Below, in pieces: positions 25,301 through 43,800 of a DNA stretch of 64,000 nt. The position numbers were made by a program, and so were the translations under genes. The stretch spans positions 62,001-126,000 of the forward strand of contig NZ_CANLEA010000009.1 of the NCBI RefSeq assembly GCF_947489565.1. Direction: 5' to 3'. The first letter of the stretch is position 1. Every line of letters begins with the position of its first letter. The notes under the pieces were generated by a model. The model did no database searches and was not told the DNA's origin. It saw nothing but the letters and a program-made list of their open reading frames with translations. This DNA comes from an uncultured Kordia sp. (GTDB lineage: Bacteria > Bacteroidota > Bacteroidia > Flavobacteriales > Flavobacteriaceae).

Positions 25301-25570
25301 ATGAAAAAAAAGAATCTAAAAACCTTACGCCTTACAAAATCGACCATCTCTCATTTAAACTTGCAATCTATAAAAGGAGGTACACAAGTAATTACGGATA
25401 TTATTCGTACACTCACAGCCAATGAAAGTGCCACTACCTGTTCCAAATATGTGATGTGCGACTCTATGTTGGCATGTCCTCCAACCATTAAAAAGACACA
25501 GTTTAAAAATGACGACACAAGTCCTGCTTCGCTTTGTGCCGAGAGAGAACCTACAGGTGTAGGTATATAA
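25301..25570 (+). CDS. Cys-rich leader peptide, class I lanthipeptide-like precursor
   Basis: An 89-residue peptide, MKKKNLKTLRLTKSTISHL leader, Gly-Gly at 26-27 (SIKGGT), then a core with Thr-rich segments and four Cys (TTCSKYVMCDSMLACPP and a later Cys). It is the third member of the set and is followed directly by an intrinsic terminator, so it is probably a single-gene transcript. The ordered Thr/Ser and Cys would permit lanthionine rings, but no LanB, LanC or LanM enzyme is in the window. Confidence 0.65.
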   Translation: MKKKNLKTLRLTKSTISHLNLQSIKGGTQVITDIIRTLTANESATTCSKYVMCDSMLACPPTIKKTQFKNDDTSPASLCAEREPTGVGI

Positions 25571-25599
25571 ACAATATGCTGTAATAATATGATACTATG

Positions 25600-25627
25600 A
25601 AAGCGAACTCTATGGAGTTCGCTTTTG
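25600..25627 (+). terminator. Intrinsic terminator after peptide gene
   Basis: AAAGCGAACTC (25600-25610), loop TATG, GAGTTCGCTTT (25615-25625), then Ts. The AGCGAAC/GTTCGCT stem recurs at 35645 and 36045. Confidence 0.8.
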
Positions 25628-25633
25628 TTTTGG

Positions 25634-25695
25634 ACTTCGACTCCATTTCGACTCCATTTCGACTCCGCTCAATGTGAACGCTCAATGTGAAGTCT
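25634..25695. repeat. Short tandem and dispersed repeats (TTCGACTCC type)
   Basis: TTCGACTCCAT is repeated twice in tandem, then TTCGACTCCGCTCAATGTGA and a second GCTCAATGTGA. These are variants of the dispersed intergenic repeat also present near 24870, 25050 and 26221. Confidence 0.6.
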
Positions 25696-25748
25696 TAATT
25701 CATTAATTTGTTGTTTCTTGTAGGGTACAAAACGGATAAACCTTCTAT

Positions 25749-26126
25749 ATGAGCACTAAAAAAATAGCTGTTATTACAAAGAACCCGTCTTTACAAAAAC
25801 AACTTAGCGAGAGTATTGAAGCATATAATTTTGAAGTATATCTAATTAACTCATTCCCTAAAGCGTTAACTATTATAACCAAGGAACAAGTTGATATTCT
25901 TTTGGGAGATTTTTCTTTTAATGAACCCTCCAGAAGAGCTGAATTTGCAGAACAATTATCTGAACACTCGCCGCAACATGCTTCGTTTATTTTCTTTACA
26001 GATAATGATCCTGATTATTTTCTTATAGAAGATCTTAAAATTACACAAACGTATTACAGAATTCGAAAACCTGTTAGTTCATTGGAGCTACAACATACCA
26101 TTAACTTAGTATTAGATAGTGCATAA
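25749..26126 (+). CDS. Degenerate receiver-domain protein
   Basis: A 125-residue single-domain protein with a CheY-like pattern: a first strand KKIAVITKNPS, a third strand DILLGDFSF with Asp54 at the phospho-acceptor place, SFIFFTDND as the fourth strand, and IRKPVS with the conserved Lys-Pro. The acidic pair normally found at the end of strand 1 is replaced by Thr-Lys, so metal-dependent phosphorylation is doubtful. It may be a pseudo-receiver that works by protein binding. No kinase or output domain is adjacent. Confidence 0.65.
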   Translation: MSTKKIAVITKNPSLQKQLSESIEAYNFEVYLINSFPKALTIITKEQVDILLGDFSFNEPSRRAEFAEQLSEHSPQHASFIFFTDNDPDYFLIEDLKITQTYYRIRKPVSSLELQHTINLVLDSA

Positions 26127-26328
26127 AGAGGCAACAATTGTAAATTCATAGACCAAGTTTACTTCCTCATTATAATGTAATACTAAAGTCATTTTTAATT
26201 TCATATTTATAACTTTATATTTCGACTCCGTTTACCTTGAGTTTTGTTTGAAAGATTCAGCGCTCGAGCTCAACTACCTATGTTATTAAAAACATTAAAT
26301 CGACATAATACTATTTTATTATTTATAC

Positions 26329-26658
26329 ATGATTGGAGAATTTTTATCAAAAATAACTTTAGTACATACAGCTATTATTGCTGTAGTATGTTTAATTACC
26401 ATGATCATATTAGCATACAAAAAGCCCAAATGGTATAAAGGTACGGAGAGACTAATTATCTTTTTTTTAGGATTGATTTTTTTCTATAGATTGGGTTGGC
26501 AGGGTTCCATTGATCATCATGATATTGCTTATATGGAACAAACTAGAATTCCAGATAATTTGACGGGGATATTTTTGTTATTAGTTCTATTAGACAATTT
26601 GTGGCTGGATAAGGTTTGGAGGGATCGGTTGGAAGAAGGAGAGGAAAATGAGGAATAG
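26329..26658 (+). CDS. Small membrane protein of unknown function
   Basis: A 109-residue protein with three hydrophobic stretches (about 10-30, 42-58 and 80-94) and an acidic C-terminus (RLEEGEENEE). I do not recognise the family. It converges on the methyltransferase gene with 47 bp between the stops and no clear terminator. The region before it (26127-26328) holds only a TTCGACTCCG repeat remnant at 26221. Confidence 0.55.
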   Translation: MIGEFLSKITLVHTAIIAVVCLITMIILAYKKPKWYKGTERLIIFFLGLIFFYRLGWQGSIDHHDIAYMEQTRIPDNLTGIFLLLVLLDNLWLDKVWRDRLEEGEENEE

Positions 26659-26705
26659 ATTGTTGCGTGTTTGGAATATTGAAGGGGTTTGATAAGAATA
26701 GTAAA

Positions 26706-28283
26706 TTACCTTCTTAACCTTTTTCTTATTAATTTACTCCTAATTTCTCTTAATTTTAATAAATCTTCATTACTGACTTCTAAAATAGAATTAAGAATAT
26801 TAAAATCATTCTTTGTTAGTATTTCCTCAATATTAGATTTGTTTTCAAATTTAACCGTAAAATCTTTGAATTCTGTATTACTAATTTCGGTATAAGGGAT
26901 TGGTAATTTTTTAAACTCGCTTGGAACAAGTTCTAGAACTCCTCCTCCATAATACCTACCATCTAATTCAGACAATAACAAGGTTAAAGTATTATAAAAC
27001 GAATAGATGAAACTATTTAAATCATAATCTTCCCGCATTTTGACTTTATAAGCTGAATCTGTAACAAATGCATCAGAATTATTTTTTAGAAGTTTTGGAT
27101 ACAAATGACTTCTCTTGAAGAAAAAAGCATCAGGTTTTTTTGCTATATTAGGAATAACATACCAATTGTTTCTTATTCTACATTTATATCTTTTAGGTAT
27201 TTTTTGCACCTCCCCTATATCCAAATACTCTCTTAGCTTTTTTGAAATTCTATCACTGTCATTTAACATCAATAATCTACTTGGATGATTTTCTTCTTCA
27301 AGTTTCTGAAAATCTTCATCATTGAAGATAACACTACCATTCACAAAAAGTCCTTTCTGTATGATTGGCTTAGTAAATCTAGATAAATTATACTTTTTTT
27401 CAATTTCCTTATCTATAATAAAAAACTTATTAGCTGCTGTCACAATACCTGGTTTTGAATCTGAATAATGATTCACCGTTTTAAGCTCTTTTTTAAGATT
27501 ATCTATGAATGCTAATTCATCAGATGTTAGAAAATGATGTATCCATTTTATTTTTGATTCAATGAGTAAATCATTTTTTTTTAAGATAAAATCATTACTC
27601 TTCAATGCTTCAGCAGAAATAATATTAGTAAAAAACTCTCCTTTCTGTTTAGCATTTTTATATGCAAATAGCACAATTGTATCTTGACCTTTACATTCAA
27701 ACATTAATTCATTAAAAGTAAAAATTTCAATTCTTTCAAATTCTTTTTTTAAATACTCTCTAACTTCTTCTGCGAATTTAACTTGCAATAACTCTGCAGG
27801 TAAAACAAATGCCAAAACTCCATTTTTTGTTAAAAGAGTATTAGCTTTAACTAAAAAAGTTGCCCAAATATTCTTCACAGAAGCCTCTGTTAAACCTTCT
27901 TCAATATGTATTTCTTTACTTAATTTTATTTGTCTTTTCGAAAGAGTGCTTTTTTTAATATAAGGAGGGTTTCCTATGACAGTTGAATACTTTTTAATAA
28001 TTGGATATTCTAAAAAATCTGTTTTTAAAAAAGATGATGACTTTTTATCCCATTTTTCTAATGCTTTTTCAAGTTCACTTTCATTAGTATCTAAAGCTGT
28101 TAATTTAATACTAATAGCCTTTTCCTCATTTAATTCAGAAATAAAAGCGCCATCACCAACACTTGGTTCTAAAATAGAAATACGACTTCTCCCTTCAAAA
28201 TGAGATAATACTCTTTTTGAAATAAAGCTTGCCAAATAAGGCGGAGTGTAATATGAACCTGTATTTTTTTTATCTAAAATCAT
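26706..28283 (-). CDS. N6-adenine DNA methyltransferase (Eco57I/TaqI-like)
   Basis: A 525-residue class I methyltransferase. Motif I is ILEPSVGDGAF (about 37-47) and the catalytic motif IV is NPPY (in VIGNPPYIKK, about 104-113), which marks adenine N6 methylation. The N-terminal GSYYTPPYLASFI is typical of type IIG and Eco57I-like enzymes. The C-terminal half (GIVTAANKFFII, ELDGRYYGGGVLELVPSEFKKLPIP) resembles a TaqI-type target-recognition domain. It has no nuclease domain of its own. The start ATG overlaps the HNH stop by 4 bp. As the last gene of the operon it probably marks self DNA, or it could modify phage DNA. Confidence 0.9.
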   Translation of the reverse strand: MILDKKNTGSYYTPPYLASFISKRVLSHFEGRSRISILEPSVGDGAFISELNEEKAISIKLTALDTNESELEKALEKWDKKSSSFLKTDFLEYPIIKKYSTVIGNPPYIKKSTLSKRQIKLSKEIHIEEGLTEASVKNIWATFLVKANTLLTKNGVLAFVLPAELLQVKFAEEVREYLKKEFERIEIFTFNELMFECKGQDTIVLFAYKNAKQKGEFFTNIISAEALKSNDFILKKNDLLIESKIKWIHHFLTSDELAFIDNLKKELKTVNHYSDSKPGIVTAANKFFIIDKEIEKKYNLSRFTKPIIQKGLFVNGSVIFNDEDFQKLEEENHPSRLLMLNDSDRISKKLREYLDIGEVQKIPKRYKCRIRNNWYVIPNIAKKPDAFFFKRSHLYPKLLKNNSDAFVTDSAYKVKMREDYDLNSFIYSFYNTLTLLLSELDGRYYGGGVLELVPSEFKKLPIPYTEISNTEFKDFTVKFENKSNIEEILTKNDFNILNSILEVSNEDLLKLREIRSKLIRKRLRR

Positions 28284-28921
28284 TTAGCTCTCTTAATTTC
28301 ACTTGGTCTATACCTACTTATTTTCTTTTCACTATTTTGAAATGAAATAATTTCAGCTGTAAGATGCATATACTCCTGTAATAATAAATCGCGTTTTTCT
28401 GATCTATCTACCAAAAGAACTTTTGATGCTAATTCTGGTAAATTCATTATAGCTTTATCTAACCTAGCGCGTAATTTAAATTCCTTTCTCTCATTTATTA
28501 ATTGAGGCCTATTTAAAACAATTTTCTCTATTATATATTTCGAAGCTACATATTTCCCGTGTAATAACCCATTTTCATCTATATCAAATAAGGTGTTATA
28601 ATTAACTTGTTTTGGATCGGGATATGAAGGGACTGAATGATTTGAATTAGGCTCCTCAGGCCAATCATTACTTTTAAATCGATTACAAATAGCACAGGCA
28701 TAAAAAAGGTTTTCAAACTCTTTTTCCAATGCAGAAAATTTTGATTTAGGCTTGAAGTGTTCTATGTGAAAATTATCACTTCCTCCAAGAGAGTTTTCAT
28801 GAATTGCACAGTATACACATTTTTCTTTAGCTTCTAAACGTATTTCTGACCTATATTTTCTATATTCAGAGACTTTTATTGGTCGTTTAGTTAAGTTTTT
28901 ATTTATTATTGTCCATTTCAT
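28280..28921 (-). CDS. HNH endonuclease
   Basis: A 213-residue protein with an HNH/zinc-type nuclease core: CVYC (35-38), FHIEHFKPKS (51-60) and NLFYACAICNRFKSN (71-85). The His-Glu-His and the later Asn form the beta-beta-alpha metal site, and the four Cys a structural zinc site. The remainder, about 130 residues, is charged and helical and may bind DNA or a partner. It is coupled by 4-bp overlaps both to the receiver gene before it and to the methyltransferase gene after it, so it is the likely effector nuclease. Target unknown. Confidence 0.88.
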   Translation of the reverse strand: MKWTIINKNLTKRPIKVSEYRKYRSEIRLEAKEKCVYCAIHENSLGGSDNFHIEHFKPKSKFSALEKEFENLFYACAICNRFKSNDWPEEPNSNHSVPSYPDPKQVNYNTLFDIDENGLLHGKYVASKYIIEKIVLNRPQLINERKEFKLRARLDKAIMNLPELASKVLLVDRSEKRDLLLQEYMHLTAEIISFQNSEKKISRYRPSEIKRAK

Positions 28922-29580
28922 TTTTCCAAAAATTGCTTAATCTTATTCGATAATTCTTCCAGTTTAATTGTCTTATCTTCCAACTCGATCAGCCATTGTT
29001 TTCTATCATTTATACTTAAAGAGGTTAAAGGAATTTCAAGTTTAGTTTGTAAACCTTTTAATTCTGAAATATCTTCTTTAGTTGCTTTATCTAATGCAAC
29101 CAACTCTGACAATTGAGCCAGCCTATTATACTCTTCTTGATAATTATTAAGATATGACTGAGTTGCTCGCACAAATCTTTGCATATATTGTTCAGCATTT
29201 TTTTTATCAGAAAATAATGTTCTACTAACAATACCATCAAATTGACCTTTCATTCCTTGTAAAACTGTATCATCATCAAAAGCTGTAATTACATACATGG
29301 GTAATTGCTTGTTAGTCACTCTCAATAGCTTGACGATATCATGTCCGCTATAGCTTGTAGATTTTCCTTTTTCATTTGGGACCACATTTAACTTCTCGTC
29401 TACAATAAGTATAACTACTTTATTTTGAACAATCCAACTAGCATAATCTTCAATTTCCTCTAATGGATCATAGTGTTTTACTTCCCATTTGATGCCCTCT
29501 TTTTTCAAATATCTTGAAATACGTTTAGCTACTCTATTCCTTAATTCTTTATTATCGTCAATTATTGCTACTTTAAGCAT
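28918..29580 (-). CDS. Stand-alone receiver-domain protein with coiled-coil tail
   Basis: A 220-residue protein. Residues 1-125 form a receiver domain with the acidic pair Asp8-Asp9 (AIIDDN), the phospho-acceptor Asp61 (ILIVDEKL) and Thr99 (VITAFDDD). The conserved Lys of strand 5 appears replaced (DGIVSRTLF). Residues 130-220 are charged heptad-like helices with no DNA-binding fold. I chose ATG 29580, since the two codons before it start with TTG. It lies 7 bp after the GHKL ATPase gene and overlaps the HNH gene by 4 bp. It probably relays a signal from the ATPase/kinase to the nuclease or methyltransferase by protein contact and not by transcription. Confidence 0.85.
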   Translation of the reverse strand: MLKVAIIDDNKELRNRVAKRISRYLKKEGIKWEVKHYDPLEEIEDYASWIVQNKVVILIVDEKLNVVPNEKGKSTSYSGHDIVKLLRVTNKQLPMYVITAFDDDTVLQGMKGQFDGIVSRTLFSDKKNAEQYMQRFVRATQSYLNNYQEEYNRLAQLSELVALDKATKEDISELKGLQTKLEIPLTSLSINDRKQWLIELEDKTIKLEELSNKIKQFLEK

Positions 29581-29587
29581 ACACAAA

Positions 29588-31918
29588 TTATTTTAATGGT
29601 AACCAAATAGAAAACTTGGCTCCGCCAAGAATCAAATCATTTTCAACTTTTCTTACCCCTTCCAAATCATCAACTATAGATTGAACTATTGTAAGACCTA
29701 AACCAGTTCCAGAAACATTTCCTTTGTCATCTGTTTTTGTACTATATAAGGCCTCCCAAATTATTTCCTTAAATTCATCATGAACCCCTAAACCAGAATC
29801 TGAAACAATAATTTCAAAACCTTCTTTATTTTCTACACTTTTAGAGTTTAAACCTAAAAAAACTTTTCTATCTTTTAGTATATTCAAACACGCAGAATAA
29901 GCATTTGTTAATAAGTTAATTAAAACAGTTTCAATATCCATTGGAAATGTTTTTGCTTGTACCTCTTTAAAATCTGTAGAAATTTCAATCCCGCTGGCTT
30001 TAAAGGTAGGAGTAACTTCAAGTATTATTTTTCTTAGCAAGGAACTAACCTCTATTTTTTTTCGAGTTCTTTTATCTCTTTTAATTCTTGTTAGAGCAAA
30101 AGCCCCCCATTCTGCAACCTGATTTGCATGTTTCTTGGAAGAGTTCAATTCAGTAAGAGCTTCTTTAATATCTGGAGGTATTTCATTTAAAGATTCAATA
30201 GCTTCTTCATTAGCCATCTTAAATTGAGTAATTGAAGTTTGTGTTTCATGACCAAAAACTGCTGATGAGATACCTATAGTGGCTAATCCACCTAGAGTTC
30301 TATTTTTATCAAGAACTTCTTCAATAGTTTTCTCTGTTTCTTTAGTCTGTACAAGAACAGCGTCAATATTAGTTGAAGCATCTAGCACGTATGAATGATT
30401 ATTTTCCTTTGCCTTCTGTTTCAGCCCGATAAGTTCTTTTTTAAGATTGTCTAACTGGATTTTATAATTATCTAATATTTTTTTGTAAGAAGGACGTTTT
30501 GGTTTATCTTCATTTATATTAATGTCCTTGTGGATTTTATGTCTATGTAATTCTAAAAGCCTCAATCCACTTAAAACTAATGCTCTTAAATCATAATAAG
30601 CTTCATTATGTACCAATCCTTCTCTAGCTGCACTGTCTTCAAGATCTATATTCTCGTCTCTACTTATATAAATAGCCCCTAACATTTGATTATTTTTAAC
30701 CATCCAATCAGAGCGACCAATACCTGCTGGGTTTTGTCCTTGTCTTTCACCTAAATTAAGCCAATCTTCTCCATCCTTCCCTGAGAAACCATAAGGTTTT
30801 ACACTTATATTATCTCTGTATATCTTCACCCCTCCATTATAACTCAAATATTCCTTTAATTGATTCAATGTAAAACCAGAGTCTTTGACCATTGCTTTGT
30901 CTCTTGGATAAAACATCAAATCAAACATAACTGGACCACAAGTAGGGTTACTTTGGCTAATGCTATTATTTTTAATATCATTTAATAATATTTTTTTTCC
31001 CTCTTGTTTTTGAGTCAACTGTTTCCATGTGATTATTTTTTCAGATGTATCACTAATCTTGTATTTATCTTTCAAGGTGTATATTATTTCATCGCTTACA
31101 CCATCGTAAAACACATTTATTTCAACTTCAGGCTCCAGATGTGCTTTAGATTTAATTTCACCTTTGTATTCTGTTATTAGATTTGTTTTTACTGTTATTT
31201 TAAAATCTTTAACTACTCTAAATGGTGAAATTAATATTAATAATTCTTCATATAGTCTCTTTAAATCTGAGTCTTTCCATTCGTTTCTTAATCCTGTAAT
31301 TATTAACTCAGTTCCTGTTGAACTTACTTTACCTTTATATTTAGGTAAATTTATTTTAGGAGAATTTATTTTTTCAAAAGGTATTAAATGTAAATCAACA
31401 CCTTGTTTATCAAAATCATTCCAGTTTATTTTTAAACCAAAAATTTCTCCTTCTTTTTTTGTAATTAAATTGATTGAAGATCCTAATCGATCAGCAGATA
31501 ATCTGCCTATACCTTTTTCACCTGTTTTTCTCCTTCCCTTTTTTGACGTAGTTTCAATTCTCTTTGATGAAAATCCGATTCGCAACCATTTCTTTAACAC
31601 CTCTTCTTTTGTCATTCCAGTGCCTGAATCTGAAATTCTTATGTAGCTTTTATCATTTTCCTTAATGCAAATTTCAATTTCAACATTAGTCGCGTCTGCA
31701 TCATATCCGTTTTTAACAAGTTCCAAAACAGCTGTAGTATGATCCTTTATACTATCTCTTCCCAAATGAGCTAGAGCACCTGAATCAGTTGTAAATCGTA
31801 AATTATCACCATCATACTTTGCTAGATCAGACGATAATTCAAGAAAAGTTTGAAAATTAATTTTCTCTTCTTCTAAAAGAGATTTAATTTCATTTTTTAA
31901 TTCATTTTCTGTTTTCAT
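29588..31918 (-). CDS. Double-GHKL ATPase: MORC/Hsp90-like module fused to histidine-kinase module
   Basis: A 776-residue protein with two GHKL ATPase modules. The N-terminal one is Hsp90/MutL/MORC-like: VLELVKNGYDADAT with Glu66 and Asn70, DSGTGM (97-102) and GEKGIGRLS (133-141). A long coiled coil (about 470-545) follows. The C-terminal part is a histidine kinase-like core: FGHETQTS with His557, N-box NLLTNAYSA (Asn672), DSGLGV (707-712) and GTGLGL (737-742). There is no signal peptide or membrane span, so it is a cytoplasmic sensor. It is the first gene of the four-gene operon, upstream of its cognate-looking receiver. Confidence 0.88.
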   Translation of the reverse strand: MKTENELKNEIKSLLEEEKINFQTFLELSSDLAKYDGDNLRFTTDSGALAHLGRDSIKDHTTAVLELVKNGYDADATNVEIEICIKENDKSYIRISDSGTGMTKEEVLKKWLRIGFSSKRIETTSKKGRRKTGEKGIGRLSADRLGSSINLITKKEGEIFGLKINWNDFDKQGVDLHLIPFEKINSPKINLPKYKGKVSSTGTELIITGLRNEWKDSDLKRLYEELLILISPFRVVKDFKITVKTNLITEYKGEIKSKAHLEPEVEINVFYDGVSDEIIYTLKDKYKISDTSEKIITWKQLTQKQEGKKILLNDIKNNSISQSNPTCGPVMFDLMFYPRDKAMVKDSGFTLNQLKEYLSYNGGVKIYRDNISVKPYGFSGKDGEDWLNLGERQGQNPAGIGRSDWMVKNNQMLGAIYISRDENIDLEDSAAREGLVHNEAYYDLRALVLSGLRLLELHRHKIHKDININEDKPKRPSYKKILDNYKIQLDNLKKELIGLKQKAKENNHSYVLDASTNIDAVLVQTKETEKTIEEVLDKNRTLGGLATIGISSAVFGHETQTSITQFKMANEEAIESLNEIPPDIKEALTELNSSKKHANQVAEWGAFALTRIKRDKRTRKKIEVSSLLRKIILEVTPTFKASGIEISTDFKEVQAKTFPMDIETVLINLLTNAYSACLNILKDRKVFLGLNSKSVENKEGFEIIVSDSGLGVHDEFKEIIWEALYSTKTDDKGNVSGTGLGLTIVQSIVDDLEGVRKVENDLILGGAKFSIWLPLK

Positions 31919-32058
31919 CTAGAATTCATTTAGTTAATCTCTTCAACACTAGAAATATAATTATCTATAATTTATCATGAAATTTCTATTCTAAATACAA
32001 GCTTTAAAATTTTAAAAATTTACTCATACTAAATATTCACTTTGAAACTTCTTTCATA

Positions 32059-32066
32059 CAAATATA
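32059..32066 (-). promoter_or_regulatory. Candidate -7 box for the four-gene operon
   Basis: Minus-strand TATATTTG matches TAnnTTTG, about 140 bp upstream of the ATPase start. No TTG -33 element is visible at the usual distance. The rest of 31919-32173 is AT-rich with no gene. Confidence 0.3.
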
Positions 32067-32173
32067 TAATAATGAAGGATATTTTTCTAGGCGGTTACTA
32101 AAAGTAGACATTTCTAAAACCTCAATATTAAACTAAAAAAAAGTTATATAACTACGGAAACCCGTAATGACTC

Positions 32174-32216
32174 AAAAAAACCACCCAAACAGCTTCCTAG
32201 AAAACTAAATGGGTGG
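32174..32216 (-). terminator. Intrinsic terminator between GIY-YIG gene and the four-gene operon
   Basis: CCACCCA (32181-32187) pairs with TGGGTGG (32210-32216); reading leftwards the stem is followed by TTTTTTT. The loop is long (22 nt). It separates the upstream genes from the operon, which therefore needs its own promoter. Confidence 0.65.
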
Positions 32217-32217
32217 C

Positions 32218-32330
32218 ATTTCGGGCTTCGAGAGCCTCAGCCCTCGGCTCAGTGCTCGAATTAGCAACATACTTCGACATACTCACTAGCAGGATTCAAG
32301 TAGCCTGAGGTTCTCGAAGGCTACTTATCC
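32218..32330. repeat. GC-richer palindromic intergenic repeat
   Basis: The segment carries several TCGAG and CTCAG elements and a perfect hairpin AGTAGCCT (32299-32306) with AGGCTACT (32318-32325), which overlaps the GIY-YIG stop codon. It belongs to the dispersed repeat type seen elsewhere in the window. Confidence 0.5.
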
Positions 32331-32611
32331 CGATACGCTATAGATAACTCGAGAAGTTTTTCATACTTCCCCGCAATCAACGCTTCTTTCTTTTTACGAC
32401 TCCAGCCTTGTACTTGCTTTTCTCTGTAAAACGCAGTATCAATTCGGGTATAAGTTTCTACATATACCAACTTAACGGGCAAGCGCTTTTTGGTATGGTT
32501 GGCACCATTTCCAGTGGCATGTTGCATAAAACGCCTTGCTAAATCTTTGGTGCTTCCTGTATAGTAACTACCATCACTACACTCCAATATGTACATATAT
32601 CCTTTTGGCAT
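32321..32611 (-). CDS. GIY-YIG nuclease-superfamily protein (UPF0213-like)
   Basis: A 96-residue protein that is a single GIY-YIG domain: YMYILEC (5-11), YYTGSTKDLARR (16-27), the NHT segment (38-40) and the Glu-bearing helix AFYREKQVQGWSRKKK. Length and motifs fit the small UPF0213/YhbQ-like group, often present in many copies in Bacteroidota. Biological role unclear; family members can act on DNA structures. It lies 36 bp after the DUF6261-like gene on the same strand. Confidence 0.9.
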   Translation of the reverse strand: MPKGYMYILECSDGSYYTGSTKDLARRFMQHATGNGANHTKKRLPVKLVYVETYTRIDTAFYREKQVQGWSRKKKEALIAGKYEKLLELSIAYRDK

Positions 32612-32647: not shown

Positions 32648-33412
32648 TCAACTTTGATCTTCCTCAGTTTCTGAGGAGTCTGAGGCACTCGAAGACTCAG
32701 TTTCCGTACTTCCCGAACTCAATCGAAGTCCCACAGTTAAGTTATACTGCTTTGCCAATACACTAAACTCATTCACCAATTCTTGATGTGTAGCATTGCT
32801 GCCTAGTGTTGCATGTGCCTCTACATGTGCCGTTAAGGTTTTGTAGGCATCGGTAGTATCCTCTCGTAATGAAGTAAAACTTGTGGCAGGATTGGCTGCC
32901 GACTCTGAGATACGTGCTAAGTATCGGTCGTTAAAAGCTTCGTTTGCTGTTTTAAGTTCTGCAATCCAATCGGTCAGTGCCGTCGTAGTAATGGCGTTTG
33001 CCAAATCGGTTTCAGTTTCCCAATCGGATAACATACTATCTATGACGGCGGTTTCGGCTTGGTAGTTCATTCGTGGAATATTGCTACCGTAGTTATTCAT
33101 ATTAAATAACAAACTACGTGCAGCCGATTGAAAACGCTCATCGTAATGATAGTTGTAGGCTTCCAAATTGGCCTTAATTCCCATAAACGCTTTATCGCGT
33201 CGAGCATCCAATTCAATTAATTCTTGTGTAATGCCACTGCTCTGCTCCTGCTGAAACAAATTGTCCATTTGAGACGTAAGCGTTGCAAGGGCATCACGCT
33301 GTGCGGTAAGTTGTAATACATCAACATCATTGGCGTTGACAAGCTCTAATACATCTTTCATGTATTGTAAAAATTCGCTATTTCTGTAGCGGTCTAATGT
33401 TGGATTTTCCAT
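32648..33412 (-). CDS. DUF6261-like helical protein
   Basis: A 254-residue mostly helical soluble protein with no signal peptide. The opening LDRYRNSEFLQYMKDVLELV and the later RRDKAFMGIKANLEAY and YNLTVGLRLSSGS segments resemble the Bacteroidota family DUF6261. The last 25 residues are a Ser/Glu-rich tail. Function unknown. Directly upstream of its start lies the 42-bp palindromic tandem repeat. Confidence 0.75.
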   Translation of the reverse strand: MENPTLDRYRNSEFLQYMKDVLELVNANDVDVLQLTAQRDALATLTSQMDNLFQQEQSSGITQELIELDARRDKAFMGIKANLEAYNYHYDERFQSAARSLLFNMNNYGSNIPRMNYQAETAVIDSMLSDWETETDLANAITTTALTDWIAELKTANEAFNDRYLARISESAANPATSFTSLREDTTDAYKTLTAHVEAHATLGSNATHQELVNEFSVLAKQYNLTVGLRLSSGSTETESSSASDSSETEEDQS

Positions 33413-33490
33413 AACATTGAGTTTTTAGAAGATTTATAATTTTTTAACACTTTTCGAGTACACTATTACACATTTCGCAATAAAAACGCT

Positions 33491-33690
33491 CCCGAAACGA
33501 TCTCGCAGCAATGCAACAAGCTTTCGGGAAATCCCGAAACGGTCTCGCAGACGTGCAGGAAGCTTTCGGGAAGTCCCGAAACGTTCTCGCAGACCTGCAG
33601 GAGGCTTTCGGGAAAACCCGAAATGTTCTCGCAACCGTGCAACAGGCTTTCGGGGAAACCTGAAACATTCTCGCAAGCCTGCAACTCCCT
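33491..33690. repeat. 42-bp palindromic tandem repeat, about 4.7 copies
   Basis: Units start at 33491, 33533, 33575, 33617 and 33659 (last one partial). Each begins CCCGAAA (CCTGAAA in the last) and ends TTTCGGG, with TCTCGCA in the middle. Arms within a unit can pair, and so can the junctions (TTTCGGGAAATCCCGAAA at 33523-33540 is a perfect palindrome). Copies differ at several positions, mostly in the loop. The array is richer in GC than its surroundings and is open in all three minus-strand frames. Confidence 0.9.
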
Positions 33691-34053
33691 TTTGTTTGGC
33701 TTATAATGCGCGAAACATTACTGTTTGATATGATGAATCTCTAAAAAAAATCAATTGAACCTTGAAATTATTTGATAAGCGTTGAATATTTTTTATAAGC
33801 GTTAGATTTTGACACTTCAACCTTCTCTTTTCAGTTTTTTATAGTGATAAACTCGTAGTTTATATGTCGCTATCGTTTCTGATGCCAATTATTTACTTTA
33901 AGTCTATAAAAATGAGCGTTTTTAGTAAGTAAGTTAAAGCGTAGCATACACTGAAAAAACTTCCGCTAATTTCCTTTAATGAAATAGTGTTTTTCCTGAA
34001 AATAGCCACAGTAGCTTTTATAGTTTTGTCATCGAATTTTAAAACTATACATC

Positions 34054-34206
34054 ATGAAAAATCAAAAAACGATTCAAACATTAACATTCAAAAAAACAAC
34101 TGTTTCTATTTTTAGCATTACAGGAGGATTGCCAATAGAAAATAATATTACAAGAACTTACTGCAACCGTAGAACAGTAGATTCCATTTGTCATTGCCCT
34201 CGTTAG
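34054..34206 (+). CDS. Short Cys-containing double-glycine leader peptide
   Basis: A 50-residue peptide that starts MKNQKTIQTLTFKKTTVSIF, has Gly-Gly at 24-25 (SITGGL) and ends in a core with three Cys (YCNRR, ICHCPR). The leader pattern LxFxKxxVSxF matches the peptides at 22395, 22781, 25301 and 55251 after conservative changes. An intrinsic terminator follows 42 bp after the stop, which supports a real transcript. The stretch before it, 33691-34053, shows nothing else. Confidence 0.6.
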   Translation: MKNQKTIQTLTFKKTTVSIFSITGGLPIENNITRTYCNRRTVDSICHCPR

Positions 34207-34248
34207 ACATAAAAACTACTTTTTACTCATAAGGAGTTATAAACAATA

Positions 34249-34282
34249 AAAGCTCAACTACTACTAGTTGGGCTTTGTTTTT
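34249..34282 (+). terminator. Intrinsic terminator after short peptide gene
   Basis: AAAGCTCAACT (34249-34259) pairs with AGTTGGGCTTT (34266-34276) with one T.G wobble, followed by a T-run. Confidence 0.75.
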
Positions 34283-34344
34283 TAACAATACCATTACGCA
34301 ACCTTATCCTAACTTTTGTATCTATTTACAAAACAACAACCCTT

Positions 34345-34845
34345 ATGAAAAACAAACTCTTTACTCTCATACTCTGTCTGAGTCTTATTTCCTGTTGGTA
34401 CTCAGATGATGGAGGCGATACTATAGCGAATAGCCTTTATGAACCTACGATACTCTTACGAACCGAACTAGAAAGTTCTATTACACTACAAGAAGCACGT
34501 GCCATAGAGAAAACAGGTAAAATTTATGTCATTGGTAATTATTTATTTGTGAACGAACCGCATGTAGGTTTTCACATTATCAATAACAGCGATCCATCGA
34601 ATCCAGTAGCAGAAAAGTTTTTAACGACGCCTGGCGTGACCGATATTATTTTTAAAGGAGATTCTTTTTATATAAATCAAGCGGTCGATTTGGTAGCCTT
34701 GAAGTTTAATGATGCCATGACAAGTGTTACGGAAACGAAACGTATCAAAAATACTTTCCCCGTTATGGAATCGCCTGATGGTTATTATCATCAGACGACT
34801 AGCGATGATGAAATTGTTGTAAACTGGACTTTAAACCTAAACTAA
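34345..34845 (+). CDS. Short LVIVD-type lipoprotein
   Basis: A 166-residue lipoprotein (LISC lipobox, Cys17). The body has blades like VIGNYLFVNEPHVGFHIINN followed by DPSNPV, the pattern of LVIVD beta-propeller repeats. It holds only about two or three blades, so it may be a shortened paralogue of the larger protein downstream. Its TAATG stop-start overlaps the next gene by one base, which indicates translational coupling. Function unknown; probably outer-membrane associated. Confidence 0.7.
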   Translation: MKNKLFTLILCLSLISCWYSDDGGDTIANSLYEPTILLRTELESSITLQEARAIEKTGKIYVIGNYLFVNEPHVGFHIINNSDPSNPVAEKFLTTPGVTDIIFKGDSFYINQAVDLVALKFNDAMTSVTETKRIKNTFPVMESPDGYYHQTTSDDEIVVNWTLNLN

Positions 34846-35588
34846 TGAGAAAGATTGTATATATATTTTTAGGAAGTTTCGCCATGTTGTTGGCAAGCTG
34901 TAATGCAGATAGTACTGATAGTGCTAATTTTGCAAGTGAGACAGGACAATCAGGATCATTAGCCCGTTTTACCATTTTGGACAATCATTTATACACGGTT
35001 GATCATTTTAACTTAAATGTGTTTGATATTAATGATAGAGAAAATCCGGTGTTGGTCAACTCTGTAAATGTCGGATTTGATATAGAAACTTTATTTTCTT
35101 ATAAATCGTACTTGTATATCGGTTCAAGAAATGGGATGTTTATTTATGATGCCAATAATTTTGAAACACCTCAGCTTTTATCGGCTGTACAACATTTTAC
35201 TGCTTGCGATCCTGTGATTGCAACACCAACGCACGCTTTTGTCACTTTAAAAGGCGGCAATCAATGTGGTGTCAATCTGAATGTATTGGAAGTATATGAT
35301 GTAACAGATGTGACGAATCCGATATTGATATCGCAACGCAATTTGGCAGGACCCGTTGGCATGGGATTTTATGGCGATTATTTATTTGTGTGTGATGATG
35401 AAGTAAAGATATTTGACATTTCTGATCCTGAAAACATGAACCTTGTGCATGCCATTAATACCGAAAGCTTTGATGTCATTATTCAGAATGATTTATTGAT
35501 TTTAGTAGGCGATCAAGGTGTATATCAATACGCTTTAGACCCAAACGACATACAAAATGAAACAATGTTGAGCACAATTTCACTATGA
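34845..35588 (+). CDS. LVIVD-repeat lipoprotein
   Basis: A 247-residue lipoprotein (MLLASC, Cys19) with about five LVIVD propeller blades: DNHLYTVDHFNLNVFDIND, YLYIGSRNGMFIYDAN, YLFVCDDEVKIFDISDPEN and others. Family members are secreted or surface proteins of unknown role in Bacteroidota. It is coupled to the short lipoprotein upstream and the pair ends at a strong terminator. Confidence 0.75.
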   Translation: MRKIVYIFLGSFAMLLASCNADSTDSANFASETGQSGSLARFTILDNHLYTVDHFNLNVFDINDRENPVLVNSVNVGFDIETLFSYKSYLYIGSRNGMFIYDANNFETPQLLSAVQHFTACDPVIATPTHAFVTLKGGNQCGVNLNVLEVYDVTDVTNPILISQRNLAGPVGMGFYGDYLFVCDDEVKIFDISDPENMNLVHAINTESFDVIIQNDLLILVGDQGVYQYALDPNDIQNETMLSTISL

Positions 35589-35644
35589 TATCCTAATAGC
35601 AACTGTACATTTAATATGTTGGAAAACATAAAACAATCATTTAT

Positions 35645-35669
35645 AAGCGAACTTCGGTTCGCTTTTTTT
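35645..35669 (+). terminator. Intrinsic terminator after LVIVD pair
   Basis: AAGCGAAC (35645-35652), tetraloop TTCG, GTTCGCTT (35657-35664), T-run to 35669. Confidence 0.88.
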
Positions 35670-35808
35670 GTGTATGATTTTTTATATGATTGTTGTTGTT
35701 TTAATTACAGGTTTTAGATGTCGGTTTTTTATAATCCCGACTTCTGTTTGTTGTGCCAATTAGTATTTTTCTTTTCATTTGAATCATTATTAATTTAAAT
35801 TATTTGTT

Positions 35809-36021
35809 ATGTTAAAATCTATTTTAAAAATTGATGGCGTTAATGAGCTAAAAAAGGAAGACCAATTACGTATCAATGGTGGGGAAAATGATCCTTGCGA
35901 AAGTTTTCATTACATCTGTTCTACTGCTGATAATTATAGTGAATGTATGAATGCATTCTTTTGCTCTGATTATAAGCATCCTATTATTTTAACTACTAAA
36001 TGGATTGAGGATATTTTTTGA
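35809..36021 (+). CDS. Double-glycine leader peptide, bacteriocin-like
   Basis: A 70-residue peptide with leader MLKSILKIDGVNELKKEDQL and then RINGG at 21-25. This is close to the classic double-glycine leader cleaved by peptidase-containing ABC transporters (hydrophobic at -12 and -4, acidic at -8). The core has four Cys in the order C-x6-C, C-x6-C (CESFHYIC and CMNAFFC). It differs from the KKNLK-type leaders elsewhere in the window. A terminator lies 23 bp downstream. Activity is unknown, and no immunity or export gene is adjacent. Confidence 0.6.
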   Translation: MLKSILKIDGVNELKKEDQLRINGGENDPCESFHYICSTADNYSECMNAFFCSDYKHPIILTTKWIEDIF

Positions 36022-36044
36022 TTCATCCTTAATTCAACTTCAAT

Positions 36045-36066
36045 AGCGAACTTCAGTTCGCTTTTT
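36045..36066 (+). terminator. Intrinsic terminator after peptide gene
   Basis: AGCGAAC (36045-36051), loop TTCA, GTTCGCT (36056-36062), T-run. It uses the same stem as the terminator at 35645. Confidence 0.8.
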
Positions 36067-36225
36067 CTATACCTTAAAGAATCAATTATATTTAATTCAA
36101 ACAATTAATTGTCAAAACATTAACTCTAAATAAAGTATTCAACATTTATAAATCCAACACACTACCTTTTTATTTTCCTACATATTCCGATTACCTTGTA
36201 GATAGCAAACATTAAAACCATTACC

Positions 36226-37281
36226 ATGAAAAAAAATTACACTTGCATCTGCTTGGCGGCATGCCTTTTTATGTCTTTAATGCTCTCTGCTCAAGCAGAA
36301 GTTGTTGCCAATACAGGACTTTTAAATCCTGTAGGAGTCACAATTAAAGACAATGATTTATTTATCAGTTCTGTTGGAAACATGTCGATTCAGAGAAAAG
36401 ACCTTACGGACACTTCCACGACTGCTACCACTGAATTTTTACCAAACTTAAGTTTCGGTGTATATCTAATGATTCAAGGAAATGATTTATACATTCCTAT
36501 GTTAGCAAACGACAAGGTTGTTAAAATTGATGTTACCAATCCTACTGCAGTTTTAACAGATGTTGCTACCAACATCATTCAGCCTGCGGGAATTGCCTTT
36601 AGAAACAATGAAATGTATGTTACCTCTCGCAATCAATCCAAAATTGTTAAAGTTGATCTTAGCCAAAGCAATCCAATACCTGTAGATGTCATTACACAAA
36701 TTCCGGGAACTCTTGTAGATGCGGTCGTATTTAAAGGAGACGAGCTTTACTTTACTCATAGTGGTTCCGTATCTAAAATAAATGTTACCGATCCAACTCC
36801 AACCATTGAAGAAGTATTGGTAGACGTAGGTGCTCTGCATATCGTTTTTGACGGAGATATCATGTATGTTTCACAAAGTGGAACCAATACCGTTTCTAGA
36901 GTAGACACTTCGCAAAGTACACCTATTCCTTTCACCTTTTTAACCTTACCTCAAACACCATGGGGAATGGTTCTGGACGATAATAACTTATACATTGCTG
37001 AGCAAACTGGCAGTAGAGTTGTACGATTCGATTTAACCACACTAGGAGTTGATGAAGCTTCCGCTAGAAAGTTTACCTATTATCCAAATCCGACAAAAGA
37101 CTATGTACACATTGCAGGCTTAGCACAAAACACGAGCTATGCTTTAACGGATCAACATGGAAGAGAGATCATGAAAGGAAAATTAGCTTCTGTAGATAAA
37201 CTAGATTTGAGCACTGTTGCCAATGGTGTATATTTCTTAAAATTAAACAACTACGAAGTAAAGAAGATTATAAAATATTAA
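36226..37281 (+). CDS. Secreted beta-propeller protein with T9SS sorting domain
   Basis: A 351-residue protein with a signal peptide (cleavage likely after LSAQA), a body of six or so NHL/SMP-30-like blades (GNDLYIPMLANDKVVKIDVT, NNEMYVTSRNQSKIVKVDLS), and a C-terminal type A T9SS domain (FTYYPNPTKDYVHIAG, ALTDQHGREIMKGKL, GVYFLKLNNYEVKKIIKY). It is probably released from the cell or surface-bound. No catalytic residues can be named. A perfect terminator follows it. Confidence 0.85.
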   Translation: MKKNYTCICLAACLFMSLMLSAQAEVVANTGLLNPVGVTIKDNDLFISSVGNMSIQRKDLTDTSTTATTEFLPNLSFGVYLMIQGNDLYIPMLANDKVVKIDVTNPTAVLTDVATNIIQPAGIAFRNNEMYVTSRNQSKIVKVDLSQSNPIPVDVITQIPGTLVDAVVFKGDELYFTHSGSVSKINVTDPTPTIEEVLVDVGALHIVFDGDIMYVSQSGTNTVSRVDTSQSTPIPFTFLTLPQTPWGMVLDDNNLYIAEQTGSRVVRFDLTTLGVDEASARKFTYYPNPTKDYVHIAGLAQNTSYALTDQHGREIMKGKLASVDKLDLSTVANGVYFLKLNNYEVKKIIKY

Positions 37282-37299
37282 TCAATAGTATAAAAGAAG

Positions 37300-37336
37300 C
37301 ATCTTGAAATATAAAACTCATTTCAAGATGTTTTTT
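37300..37336 (+). terminator. Intrinsic terminator after propeller gene
   Basis: CATCTTGAAAT (37300-37310) pairs with ATTTCAAGATG (37320-37330), then TTTTTT. Confidence 0.85.
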
Positions 37337-38072
37337 GTAGGTTAATTGTTTATTGTGGCGAACATATTTAAAGTTTGTAATTACCTAAATGTGGACAAAA
37401 GCAATACATATTTCTTGACGATTTAATACTGATTCTGTCAAAATGATATGTTACTTCTTTTGTAGTATTTTTAAATTCTTTCTCATTTACGATACAACTT
37501 CCTTTTTTCGCAACAATGTTATTTCGTTAACTAGTTGGTGACAAATTCATGATTCTTACAAAGAATTTCTTAAAAAATACCGTTTATCTTCCTTTCTTTG
37601 CAGTTAATCCGAAGGTTTTTTACAATATTCTCGAAAAAAAATTGTTATTTTGTCAGAGTTTTAATTAAAGAGCGGAATTTTTTAATTCCAAATTTCAATA
37701 AAATATAGATTGTACACAGAAGAAATCTTTCCCCTAAGCCAATATTTCTGTTGTATCATATTTTATTAGAAGTACGTTGTAATTTTTAGTCCTAAATAAT
37801 AAAGAACTTATTAAACACTAAAAAAGACTCCGTAAAAGGCTAATTTTAAAAGATTTGATTATTTTCTTATAGAAACATTAATTTGTTTCTCTTGAAGAAG
37901 AACATGAATCGCTGGTCATTTGAAAAGCATATGCACAGTAGTATCGTTTGATACGAAATGATGCTTTTTCAATATGTTTTACAGAATAAGATGACGAGAT
38001 ATGTGATTTATAAGAAACTAAAAATCAGACATTAAAATTATTTTTGTGAGTTTTTTTTTATAATTTTAAACT
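37337..38072. other. Long non-coding stretch with hairpins
   Basis: Over 700 bp without a supported gene. It contains AGAAACA/TGTTTCT (37871-37890, six-base loop) and a larger stem, GAAAAGCAT (37922-37930) with ATGCTTTTTC (37961-37970), enclosing GTATC-GTTT-GATAC (37941-37954). There is also GGAATT/AATTCC at 37674-37689. TATTTTTG at 38039-38046 fits the -7 consensus for the next gene. A small RNA or a long leader is possible. Confidence 0.35.
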
Positions 38073-38417
38073 GTGAAACTAAAATATACCATACTATTGG
38101 TTTTATTATATACCTGCAATTTGTTAGCAGCAAATACAAAATACGCTGATGACAATGCATTCAATTTTAATACTTCCATTACTGAACCTGGGAACGAGGC
38201 TGTATTAAATCCTCCTACCATTGCTACTGCGGATGATAGTAGTCTACTTGGCGGCGGCATAGGAGATGAAGATGAAACACTAGACTCTGTACTAAGTTAT
38301 TTTATCTTAATTTTCTTCTCGGTATTGATTATTATACTGATTGATAATAGAAACCTAGAGAAACGCTACAAGAAACTCGTAGCAGATTTTAAAACAAAAG
38401 AACATCCTACATTATAA
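38073..38417 (+). CDS. Small exported membrane-anchored protein, GTG start
   Basis: A 114-residue protein starting at GTG. It has a signal peptide (MKLKYTILLVLLYTCNLLA), a polar middle with an acidic segment (GGGIGDEDETLDS) and one C-terminal membrane span (about 73-91, YFILIFFSVLIIILI), followed by a basic cytoplasmic tail. The family is not recognised. The layout is like that of small flavobacterial envelope proteins. It ends at a bidirectional terminator. Confidence 0.6.
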   Translation: MKLKYTILLVLLYTCNLLAANTKYADDNAFNFNTSITEPGNEAVLNPPTIATADDSSLLGGGIGDEDETLDSVLSYFILIFFSVLIIILIDNRNLEKRYKKLVADFKTKEHPTL

Positions 38418-38426
38418 TATAAACAT

Positions 38427-38458
38427 AAAAAAGTCGAATATTGCTATTCGACTTTTTT
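38427..38458. terminator. Bidirectional terminator
   Basis: AAAAAAGTCGAATA (38427-38440), loop TTGC, TATTCGACTTTTTT (38445-38458): a perfect 14-bp stem between convergent genes, serving both. Confidence 0.88.
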
Positions 38459-38490
38459 TATGCTTGTATAATTTCTTTGTATAATAGTAA

Positions 38491-39852
38491 TTAACCAATT
38501 CCTTTGATGATATCATATTTCGTAATAATATGATGCTTACCTCCATCCAAAGCTACCAATACTGCTTGATTATCTTTGGTAATCAATTTTGAAATTTCTT
38601 CAATTGGTGTATTGTGATGCACTATTGGAAATGGTTTTTCCATGATATCTGCAATATACGTATCCGCAATGTCTTTGTTTTCCAAATACTTTGTAAAAAG
38701 CGAAGTCTCATCTACAGAACCTACAAAACCTTCTGTATCCTCTACAGGAATTTGTGAAATTTTAAACTTACGCATACGCTCAATAGCATGCGATACCAAC
38801 TCTCCTGTTTTTACAGTCACCAATGGTTTGTCAGAATGTCCTTTGATCAAATCGGCAGCCGTTGAGATTTCTTCTTCCAAGAAACCACGTTCACGCATCC
38901 AATCGTCGTTAAACATTTTCCCAACATATCTACTTCCATGATCGTGAAATAAAACCACCACCACATCGTCTTTGCTAAAATGTTCTTTTAGCTGTAATAC
39001 ACCTTTTATAGCAGCTCCAGCAGAATTTCCTAAGAACATTCCTTCTTCTTTTGCCAAACGTTGTGTATACACTGCCGCATCTTTGTCAGTTACTTTTGTA
39101 AAACCGTCAATAATACTAAAGTCCACATTTTTAGGTAAAATATCTTCTCCAATTCCTTCCGTAACGTACGAATAGATTTCGTTTTCATCAAAAATACCAG
39201 TTTCGTGATATTTTTTAAACACAGAACCATACGTGTCAACTCCCCAAACTTTTACATTCGGATTTTGTTCTTTTAAGTATTTTCCAACTCCCGAAATGGT
39301 TCCACCAGTTCCTACACCTACAATAAAATGCGTTACTTTTCCATTAGTCTGATCCCAAATTTCAGGACCTGTACTTTCGTAGTGCGCTTTGGCATTACTT
39401 GGATTGTCATACTGGTTTACGTACCATGAGTTTGGTGTTTCTTCACCCAAACGTTTTGATACAGAATAATACGAACGTGGATCTTCTGGCTCAACTGCTG
39501 TTGGACATACAATTACTTCCGCACCAACGGCACGTAAAATGTCCATTTTCTCTTTCGATTGTTTGTCTGCCATCACACAAATAAGCTTGTACCCTTTTAC
39601 AATGGCAGCCAATGCTAAGCCCATTCCTGTGTTTCCAGAAGTTCCTTCAATAATAGTTCCGCCAGGTTGTAAGCGTCCATCTGCTTCGGCATCTTCAATC
39701 ATCTTTAAGGCCATTCTGTCTTTTACAGAATTCCCCGGATTGAAAGTCTCATATTTTGCCAATACCAAAGCATCAATGCCTTCTACTAAGGCATTCATTT
39801 TAACTAAAGGTGTATTTCCGATAGTTTCCAATATATTTTTTGCGTATTCCAT
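38491..39852 (-). CDS. Cystathionine beta-synthase / cysteine synthase with CBS domains
   Basis: A 453-residue PLP enzyme of fold type II. PLP-binding Lys44 lies in NPGNSVKDRMALK, the phosphate loop is GTSGNTG (70-76), and GVGTGGTISGVGKYLK is also typical. Two CBS domains follow (about 335-450, SHAIERMRKFKISQIPVED and IADIMEKPFPIVHH). That architecture matches cystathionine beta-synthase, which makes cystathionine from serine and homocysteine; a cysteine-synthase activity is an alternative. The ATG at 39852 was chosen over an upstream TTG, because a -7 box lies at 39871-39878 within the longer reading. Confidence 0.9.
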   Translation of the reverse strand: MEYAKNILETIGNTPLVKMNALVEGIDALVLAKYETFNPGNSVKDRMALKMIEDAEADGRLQPGGTIIEGTSGNTGMGLALAAIVKGYKLICVMADKQSKEKMDILRAVGAEVIVCPTAVEPEDPRSYYSVSKRLGEETPNSWYVNQYDNPSNAKAHYESTGPEIWDQTNGKVTHFIVGVGTGGTISGVGKYLKEQNPNVKVWGVDTYGSVFKKYHETGIFDENEIYSYVTEGIGEDILPKNVDFSIIDGFTKVTDKDAAVYTQRLAKEEGMFLGNSAGAAIKGVLQLKEHFSKDDVVVVLFHDHGSRYVGKMFNDDWMRERGFLEEEISTAADLIKGHSDKPLVTVKTGELVSHAIERMRKFKISQIPVEDTEGFVGSVDETSLFTKYLENKDIADTYIADIMEKPFPIVHHNTPIEEISKLITKDNQAVLVALDGGKHHIITKYDIIKGIG

Positions 39853-39870
39853 TCTTATATCTTGATGGGA

Positions 39871-39891
39871 CAAAGATACAAAGTCTTTGTA
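39871..39891 (-). promoter_or_regulatory. Candidate promoter and operator of the cystathionine beta-synthase gene
   Basis: Minus-strand TATCTTTG (39878-39871) fits the TAnnTTTG -7 element about 20 bp before the ATG. A perfect 7-1-7 palindrome, TACAAAG-T-CTTTGTA (39877-39891), abuts it and could bind a dimeric regulator. Confidence 0.4.
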
Positions 39892-43798: not shown

Positions 43799-43800
43799 GA

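Follow-up and report, generated by a model that had tools for sequence, protein, structure and literature searches.

The window analysed here is a stretch of 64,000 nucleotides (C9:62001-126000) in the 6.42-Mb, 100-contig genome of an uncultured Kordia sp. On its minus strand, positions 26706-31918 hold a block of four genes encoding a kinase-like protein, a receiver, an HNH protein and a DNA methyltransferase. These four genes are a widely conserved unit. Judged from sequences and structure models, they probably form a restriction (anti-phage) system gated by a phosphorelay, a reading to which we give a probability of about 0.55. The genes were taken from a list of open reading frames (ORFs); the basis of each assignment is given in brackets.

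29588..31918, minus strand, putative MORC-like ATPase/histidine kinase fusion, 776 amino acids (aa) (ORF, Pfam, profile, fold, residues)
28918..29580, minus strand, predicted response regulator, 220 aa from the ATG (ORF, profile, model, residues)
28280..28921, minus strand, predicted PtuB/TIGR02646-related HNH endonuclease, 213 aa (Pfam, PADLOC, NCBIfam, profile, fold)
26706..28283, minus strand, predicted M.Eco57I-type DNA methyltransferase with an M_Eco57I_C C-terminal domain, 525 aa (Pfam, PADLOC, residues)

The ORF list starts the receiver at a TTG (29586); the ATG start gives 28918-29580. Counted from this ATG, the intergenic distances are 7, -4 and -4 bp. The ORF coordinates confirm the layout given in a first-pass annotation of the same DNA, which had described four same-strand genes at these positions and with these gaps.

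Employing an alignment of the kinase, we scanned genomes of 84,980 species and found 245 relatives. The best 80 were kept and gave 79 loci, so kinases farther from that of the window are not represented among them. A scan of genome contigs with the receiver alone found no relative; the kinase alignment succeeded. Loci were picked by kinase similarity alone, and the two linkage counts that follow refer to loci on genome contigs only. A receiver gene and then an HNH gene lay downstream of the kinase in 74/74 loci with at least 1.5 kb of downstream sequence. A methyltransferase gene stood beside the trio in 64/64 loci with at least 3.3 kb (50 downstream and 12 upstream by profile; 2 added by Pfam, directly downstream in L085 and adjacent on the opposite strand in L049). 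The 62 sets found by profile were tight, the gaps not exceeding 30 bp in 61, 62 and 58 of them. These counts include near-identical loci and loci from the same genome (L029, which is the G045 locus; L060/L062/L101; L055/L057/L059; L073/L076; and L040 with L050, both from one metagenome-assembled genome, MAG). Among the phyla represented are Bacteroidota, Bacillota, Pseudomonadota, Campylobacterota, Myxococcota, Cloacimonadota, Melainabacteria, Nomurabacteria, TM6 and one MAG labelled as an archaeon.

Within the family of the window, the receiver was found in 6 of 299 genomes drawn, and 5 of these (the window's own genome included) have kinase, receiver, HNH and methyltransferase genes in the same order. 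The sixth match (G206, locus L014) was an ordinary receiver with no kinase or HNH gene nearby and was not counted. The first-pass annotation had proposed looking for conserved co-occurrence in at least 20 distant genomes, and the 74/74 and 64/64 linkage across many phyla provides it. Together with the 5/5 in family genomes, the same counts leave next to no room for the view that a stray two-component pair merely happens to lie beside an HNH/methyltransferase pair.

The set was also found on plasmids and viral contigs. Plasmid records of Bacteroides finegoldii and Salipiger have the same gene order, and those of Deinococcus and Klebsiella variicola have the methyltransferase first (the kinase is split in Klebsiella). 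Plasmid loci L017, L020, L021 and L022 are without the set, save for a weak receiver match in L017. Among 19 loci on viral contigs, 12 carry receiver and HNH by profile. L115, L116, L120, L121, L122 and L124 are without this pair by profile (an upstream methyltransferase match is found in L115, L116 and L122), and L106 ends at the kinase.

Residues were compared in 87 kinases, 90 receivers, 90 HNH proteins and 84 methyltransferases. For these comparisons and for those of co-divergence, L029, L059, L076, L101, L109 and L110 were dropped as copies, and L124 and loci without a receiver or HNH gene were excluded; the kinase set also excludes the split kinases of L015, L050 and L070. The features on which the predicted phosphorelay depends are the following.

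31694..31735, minus strand, first GHKL N-box of the kinase, residues 62-75, with E66 and N70 (alignment)
30248..30250, minus strand, His557 codon of the kinase, predicted phospho-acceptor (87/87 kinases)
29594..29938, minus strand, C-terminal HATPase_c (catalytic, ATP-binding) of the kinase, residues 661-775 (Pfam)
29398..29400, minus strand, Asp61 codon of the receiver (D63 from the TTG), predicted phospho-acceptor (90/90 receivers)

Profiles and fold matches indicate that the kinase is a MORC-like ATPase joined to an HK853-like core. Pfam placed HATPase_c_3 at residues 62-175 and HATPase_c at 661-775. The predicted architecture is an N-terminal GHKL and transducer-like part (residues ~40-460), a coiled coil, a helix bearing His557 and a C-terminal catalytic, ATP-binding (CA) domain. 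E66 and N70 are kept in 84/87 kinases (the other 3 rows are without that end) and N668 and N672 in 87/87. His557 aligns with the catalytic His in the SHELRT stretch of HK853, and position 558 is E or D in 86/87. Beginning near the His helix and running to its end, the kinase profile matched HK853 (E = 1.6e-23); its N-terminal part matched MORC3 (E = 9e-8). In the kinase model (mean predicted local distance difference test score, pLDDT, 84), one half resembles chains of the HK853-RR468 complex and the other half DNA-bound MORC2; whole-chain TM-scores are low (~0.2-0.3), each match covering part of the chain. The MORC/paraMORC feature of a GHKL domain and transducer with a catalytic Glu is present (E66 in 84/87, MORC3 profile, MORC2 fold), the transducer part being judged from the fold match only. 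In HisKA kinases, the His+4 position usually bears a phosphatase Thr or Asn; it is variable across the present kinases.

Kinases of this build also stand in other gene sets. L020 and L022 have more distant ones, with partner proteins of 636-714 aa and an FtsK-type gene in the set, and the L020 set adds genes for a cysteine desulfurase, a DUF4007 protein and a PAPS-reductase-family protein. These two loci suggest a possible further use of the kinase layer, in modification systems of the phosphorothioate type. In L021, a kinase of the same build lies between a cytosine methyltransferase/Vsr pair and a set of DUF3883, ATP-binding, Z1 and PD-(D/E)XK genes. Elsewhere in the window's own genome (L002, G000:C13:155821-157275), a C5-methyltransferase-like gene is followed by a 786-aa frame that resembles the first half of the kinase only; this is possibly a BbrUII/HgiDII-type restriction pair.

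The receiver on its own matched Response_reg of Pfam weakly (E = 4e-4; 20.9 bits vs a cut-off of 30.2), and its family profile matched the PhoP receiver (E = 8e-7). The model (mean pLDDT 91) has a receiver (REC) fold at ~1-125 and a long helical tail at 126-219. Besides the invariant Asp61, the receiver Thr is kept in 88/90. The proteins show the residues expected of a two-component phosphorelay: conserved candidates for the phospho-His and the phospho-Asp, and a conserved site for ATP. Past the 3' end of the operon, the plus strand encodes at 25749-26126 a receiver-like protein that consists of a single domain and stands alone (Response_reg, under the cut-off with E = 3.5e-5), whose best match in a genome of the same genus is just 23% identical.

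The conserved residues of the kinase and the operon's receiver bear on the view that no phosphate is transferred, and that the kinase-like half and the receiver only change conformation, driven by ATP, in the manner of MORC/MutL looping. We consider it improbable. The N-terminal half is MORC-like, DNA looping has been proposed for such ATPases (Iyer et al. 2008, PMC2292703, in the part of the text available), and the receiver Lys is replaced by Arg in 26/90, all of which would suit such a machine. However, His557 in 87/87, Glu or Asp next to it in 86/87, the CA asparagines in 87/87, the receiver Asp in 90/90 and the Thr in 88/90 are too strict for dead parts.

Still less credible is control of expression, in which the kinase/receiver pair would regulate an ordinary Type II restriction-modification (R-M) pair, even though direct or indirect control of R-M by such pairs was a speculation of the authors of the 2021 study (PMC8011034, available portion). 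No DNA-binding domain recurred among 77 receivers (Pfam; single weak hits only). By fold, the receiver matched receiver domains, PorX and LvrB, and its tail superposed poorly; the tail also appears to diverge together with the HNH protein, with the caveats given below.

The 213-aa protein contains an HNH domain of Pfam (E = 1e-6), and His55 (codon 28757-28759) corresponds to a His kept in 90/90 HNH proteins. All four residues that the first-pass annotation had singled out for mutation (E66 and H557 of the kinase, D61 of the receiver and the HNH His) are therefore present and conserved. Profile matches indicate that the HNH protein is related to PtuB: the HNH profile matched the PtuB entry of the PDB (E = 3e-7), and 41/46 HNH proteins matched TIGR02646 and 38/46 PtuB at E<=1e-3. 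The window protein itself is below both curated cut-offs of NCBIfam (37.8 of 150 bits and 33.9 of 52.15 bits). In the HNH proteins of L024-L026, other residues stand in place of the second Cys of each pair (C to T; C to V or I), so this branch may no longer have the structural zinc site. The methyltransferase matched Eco57I and M_Eco57I_C of Pfam (E = 5e-38) and has an NPPY motif (codons at 27960-27971), of which Pro-Pro is kept in 84/84 and Asn in 83/84 methyltransferases. In a sample of 18 methyltransferases, Eco57I was found in 17 and N6_Mtase in 16. The enzyme is probably of the adenine-N6 type.

We compared the divergence of the parts by rank correlation of pairwise identities. The correlation was 0.85 for kinase and HNH, 0.19 for kinase and methyltransferase and 0.13 for HNH and methyltransferase (82 loci). 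The methyltransferases fall into four types with 52, 25, 4 and 3 members. On the kinase tree, a quick tree with several long branches, 13 changes of type were counted, and branches with good support require at least 11 changes of type M0; on the tree, the types form clusters and are not spread at random. Between the window and L023, the kinase is 67% identical and the methyltransferase 38-40%; between L035 and L041, the kinase is 71% and the methyltransferase 82-90% identical. By these comparisons, divergence is shared by kinase, receiver and HNH, whereas the methyltransferase is subject to exchange, and this exchange was beyond what the first-pass annotation could see from one sequence.

The receiver seems to be divided between its two partners, the tail tracking the HNH protein and the receiver domain the kinase, with caveats. 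Given the kinase, the partial correlation with HNH was 0.65 for the tail vs 0.30 for the receiver domain (kinase pairs of >45% identity; 360 pairs, 87 loci). The difference was zero or less in 0/400 bootstraps, and the tail was ahead in 5/6 clades. Receiver domain-kinase was above tail-kinase in 6/6 clades. In the pair L078/L090, the kinases are 96% and the methyltransferases 83% identical, whereas the tails are 46% and the HNH proteins 49% identical; along the receivers, identity is 60-85% up to about residue 140, then drops to 35-40% and remains low across HNH. Tail and HNH look as if they had been exchanged as one piece.

From these data we propose the following mechanism. The MORC-like N-terminal ATPase half would dimerise on ATP and clamp or scan DNA, alone or with the methyltransferase. 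On foreign DNA, most simply DNA without the mark of the methyltransferase, the HK853-like core would phosphorylate His557, and the phosphate would pass to Asp61 of the receiver. The helical tail of the receiver would hold or recruit the HNH protein, and its change of state would release or position the nuclease to cut DNA. The Eco57I-type methyltransferase would mark self DNA and give sequence specificity; a swap would change the target, not the machine. The methyltransferase would be a plug-in for marking self, and most likely the specificity comes from it as well, since a restriction part with a fixed specificity of its own could hardly tolerate so many changes of methyltransferase. The usual position of its gene after that of the nuclease fits a nuclease that is silent until licensed. 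A parallel is VcSduA, in which a nuclease and a GHKL ATPase are fused and whose defence against phages depends on the ATPase Glu (PMC12137116, available portion).

The same gate could instead serve abortive infection. The licensed HNH would then degrade DNA indiscriminately and kill or halt the cell, and the methyltransferase would be a guard whose loss or inhibition by a phage is the trigger. The nuclease is related to PtuB, an effector of retron and Septu systems; no specificity domain was recognised in it; and the methyltransferase gene follows that of the nuclease in 50/64 loci, as expected for a nuclease silent by default. Even so, we regard this version as the less likely one: the methyltransferase is kept in every locus with enough room, and its type is exchanged often, as would be expected of an enzyme that marks self and shifts specificity more than of a fixed trigger.

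Several observations weigh against a phosphorelay-gated restriction system or weaken its support. Several of the phyla are known from single MAG contigs, which may be misbinned. The first N-box is missing in 3/87 kinases, the kinase is split in L015, L050 and L070, and the HNH match in L089 is an 80-aa piece. The usual beta5 Lys of receivers is Lys in 62/90 and Arg in 26/90, the window receiver included. The lack of a recognised specificity domain in HNH means that its choice of target is something that we infer. In the co-divergence analysis, the pooled lead of receiver-kinase over tail-kinase was zero or less in 54/400 bootstraps and was reversed at the 50% threshold (0.57 vs 0.63). At the 30% threshold, the contrast between tail-HNH (0.28) and receiver-HNH (0.30) vanished, and in the smallest clade (4 loci) receiver-HNH was above tail-HNH. 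Gene order, with the receiver gene between those of kinase and HNH, could be behind part of the co-divergence; however, the methyltransferase, whose gene also adjoins that of HNH in most loci, does not track HNH.

The first-pass annotation had put forward a chain in which the ATPase senses, the signal passes through the receiver, HNH is licensed and the methyltransferase marks self. Linkage, residues, the build of the kinase, co-divergence and genomic contexts give this chain partial support. We infer that DNA is the stimulus, that control works by activation and not by releasing an inhibition, that the tail contacts HNH and that the activity is directed against phages. The pairing of kinase and receiver beside R-M genes was itself not new, having been known since 2021. 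A more specific version, somewhat short of an even chance in our estimate, is a DNA-stimulated two-component system: a MORC clamp-kinase would read methylation set by an exchangeable methyltransferase, and a His-Asp phosphorelay would licence a PtuB-family nuclease.

R-M-linked double-GHKL kinase/receiver pairs are already known. Bellieny-Rabelo et al. (2021, PMC8011034, available portion) described HEF_HK/Response_reg_2 pairs of this kind, with HNH variants among the neighbours. These elements resemble the present cassette in a kinase with HATPase_c_3, a His helix like that for dimerisation and histidine phosphotransfer (DHp) and HATPase_c, in an adjacent receiver protein and in R-M neighbours. 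Response_reg_2 (PF19192) was found in 4/299 genomes of the window's family, in 3 over the cut-off. Three example loci from this family, found by PF19192, have kinases homologous to the present one (profile E = 7e-64 to 9e-59). However, these examples have a 962-967-aa kinase, a 515-577-aa receiver protein and a methyltransferase that is C5-type by eye, whereas the present cassette has a 776-aa kinase, a 220-aa receiver, a separate PtuB-like HNH and an Eco57I-type methyltransferase. The possibility that the cassette is itself a HEF_HK/Response_reg_2 element is not borne out, with PF19191 and PF19192 unmatched. HEF_HK (PF19191) was not matched by the window kinase at E<=1 or by 0/6 further kinases of the four-gene type at E<=0.01 (2/4 more distant kinases matched it weakly, E = 0.004). 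Response_reg_2 was matched by 0/77 receivers at E<=0.01, and a profile comparison of the receivers gave 7% probability, so that no homology between them is detectable.

Among MORC/paraMORC proteins in R-M operons, which share the GHKL and transducer half and the R-M setting, paraMORC1 is described as having a conserved C-terminal extension and occurring with HNH genes (Iyer et al. 2008, PMC2292703, available portion). It may be of the same family as the present kinase. The words "receiver" and "two-component" are absent from the text of that paper, and the available portion describes no histidine-kinase core for the extension. The HNH of the cassette is related to the TIGR02646/PtuB kind of Septu and retron systems, but the control layer here is a kinase and a receiver; neither a PtuA-type ATPase nor a reverse transcriptase is among the four genes (retron RNA was not searched for). 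Detocs, composed of the kinase DtcA, the phosphate buffer DtcB and the regulator DtcC (PMC11728103, available portion), likewise uses two-component logic in defence, whereas the present cassette has one receiver, a separate HNH and a methyltransferase; it is set apart from Detocs by the described make-up, no Detocs profile having been searched. The legend of Fig. 6F for DefensePredictor (PMC13092281, available portion) gives HATPase and REC labels in a panel of predicted, not validated, defence systems, one of which may be the same gene set.

The first-pass annotation had said that a match of all four genes to an already named system would count against it. None of 77 receivers matched a model of PADLOC-DB 2.0.0 (2023) at E<=0.001, but the kinase N-terminus, HNH and methyltransferase matched the generic models REase_II, PtuB and MTase_II. 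The DNA methyltransferase expected of Type II R-M is present (MTase_II, 475 bits; NPPY motif). A literature search, with bioRxiv and most subscription journals outside its reach, found no paper naming this four-gene set. Apparently, the cassette is a subtype in its own right that is widely distributed and has a particular nuclease and methyltransferase, and there is evidence for the order in which its parts make contact.

The genomic context points to mobility. The cassettes of L107 and L111 are inside P2-like prophages (with integrase, CI-type repressor and GPA genes in L107, and terminase, portal and GPO genes in L111). In Klebsiella L015, the cassette is within 5 kb of a ppl and a PifA match; neighbouring defence genes are given as examples, with no control comparison. 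In the window, the chromosomal site next to a DUF6261 gene is variable, because G179, a genome of the same genus, holds other genes matching defence models there while the flanks are shared (compared stretches: L134:10346-14119 of G179 vs window 25301-32611). G179 is without this receiver, and window 32716-46801 is collinear there. What lies beside the DUF6261 gene in the window is a GIY-YIG gene with the operon; in G179 it is two genes of 306 and 949 aa, with matches to DrmC (E = 6e-9) and Ppl (E = 6e-21). The peptide gene (88/89 aa) beyond the G179 site genes is 47% identical to window 25301-25570. A short repetitive coding-like stretch lies by the DUF6261 gene (window 33434-33676), with a different repeat in the relative (L134:9011-9385), and at window 45148-45520 three pieces match one and the same part of the relative, which points to a tandem repeat at this place.

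The GC content of the operon is 0.292, vs 0.356 for bases 1-26000 and 0.343 for 33001-64000, and the lowest-GC 5.2-kb stretch of the window (0.291) overlaps it. The first-pass annotation was thus right that the block is more AT-rich than its neighbours, from which it had suggested transfer. It had also noted a terminator on the upstream side and a candidate promoter, for which we list two features.

~32174..32217, minus strand, hairpin followed by U7, probable terminator of the upstream gene (fold of 32140-32235, z -4.6)
32059..32066, minus strand, TAnnTTTG box 148 nt upstream of the kinase ATG, candidate Bacteroidota-type -7 element (weak evidence)

The hairpin agrees with the annotated terminator and probably ends transcription of the upstream gene, separating that gene from the operon; a simple terminator scan allowing loops of 3-8 did not list it. 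The promoter fared less well: sigma-70-type matches in the region were at chance level (36 found vs 34.8 expected), leaving the single TAnnTTTG box, which we take to be the Bacteroidota -7 consensus, as a weak candidate.

We know of no earlier restriction system gated by a phosphorelay. If the proposed reading is true, the cassette would be the first, and its specificity module could be exchanged while the machine stayed as it is. Two-component signalling and restriction would be joined in one cassette, which occurs in lineages as far apart as Flavobacteria and Clostridia and, by MAG contigs, in candidate phyla. The MORC-type ATPase would gain a simple bacterial read-out, phosphate on an aspartate, for measuring DNA sensing, and an exchangeable methyltransferase feeding a constant phosphorelay-gated nuclease would be an attractive sensor of DNA modification.

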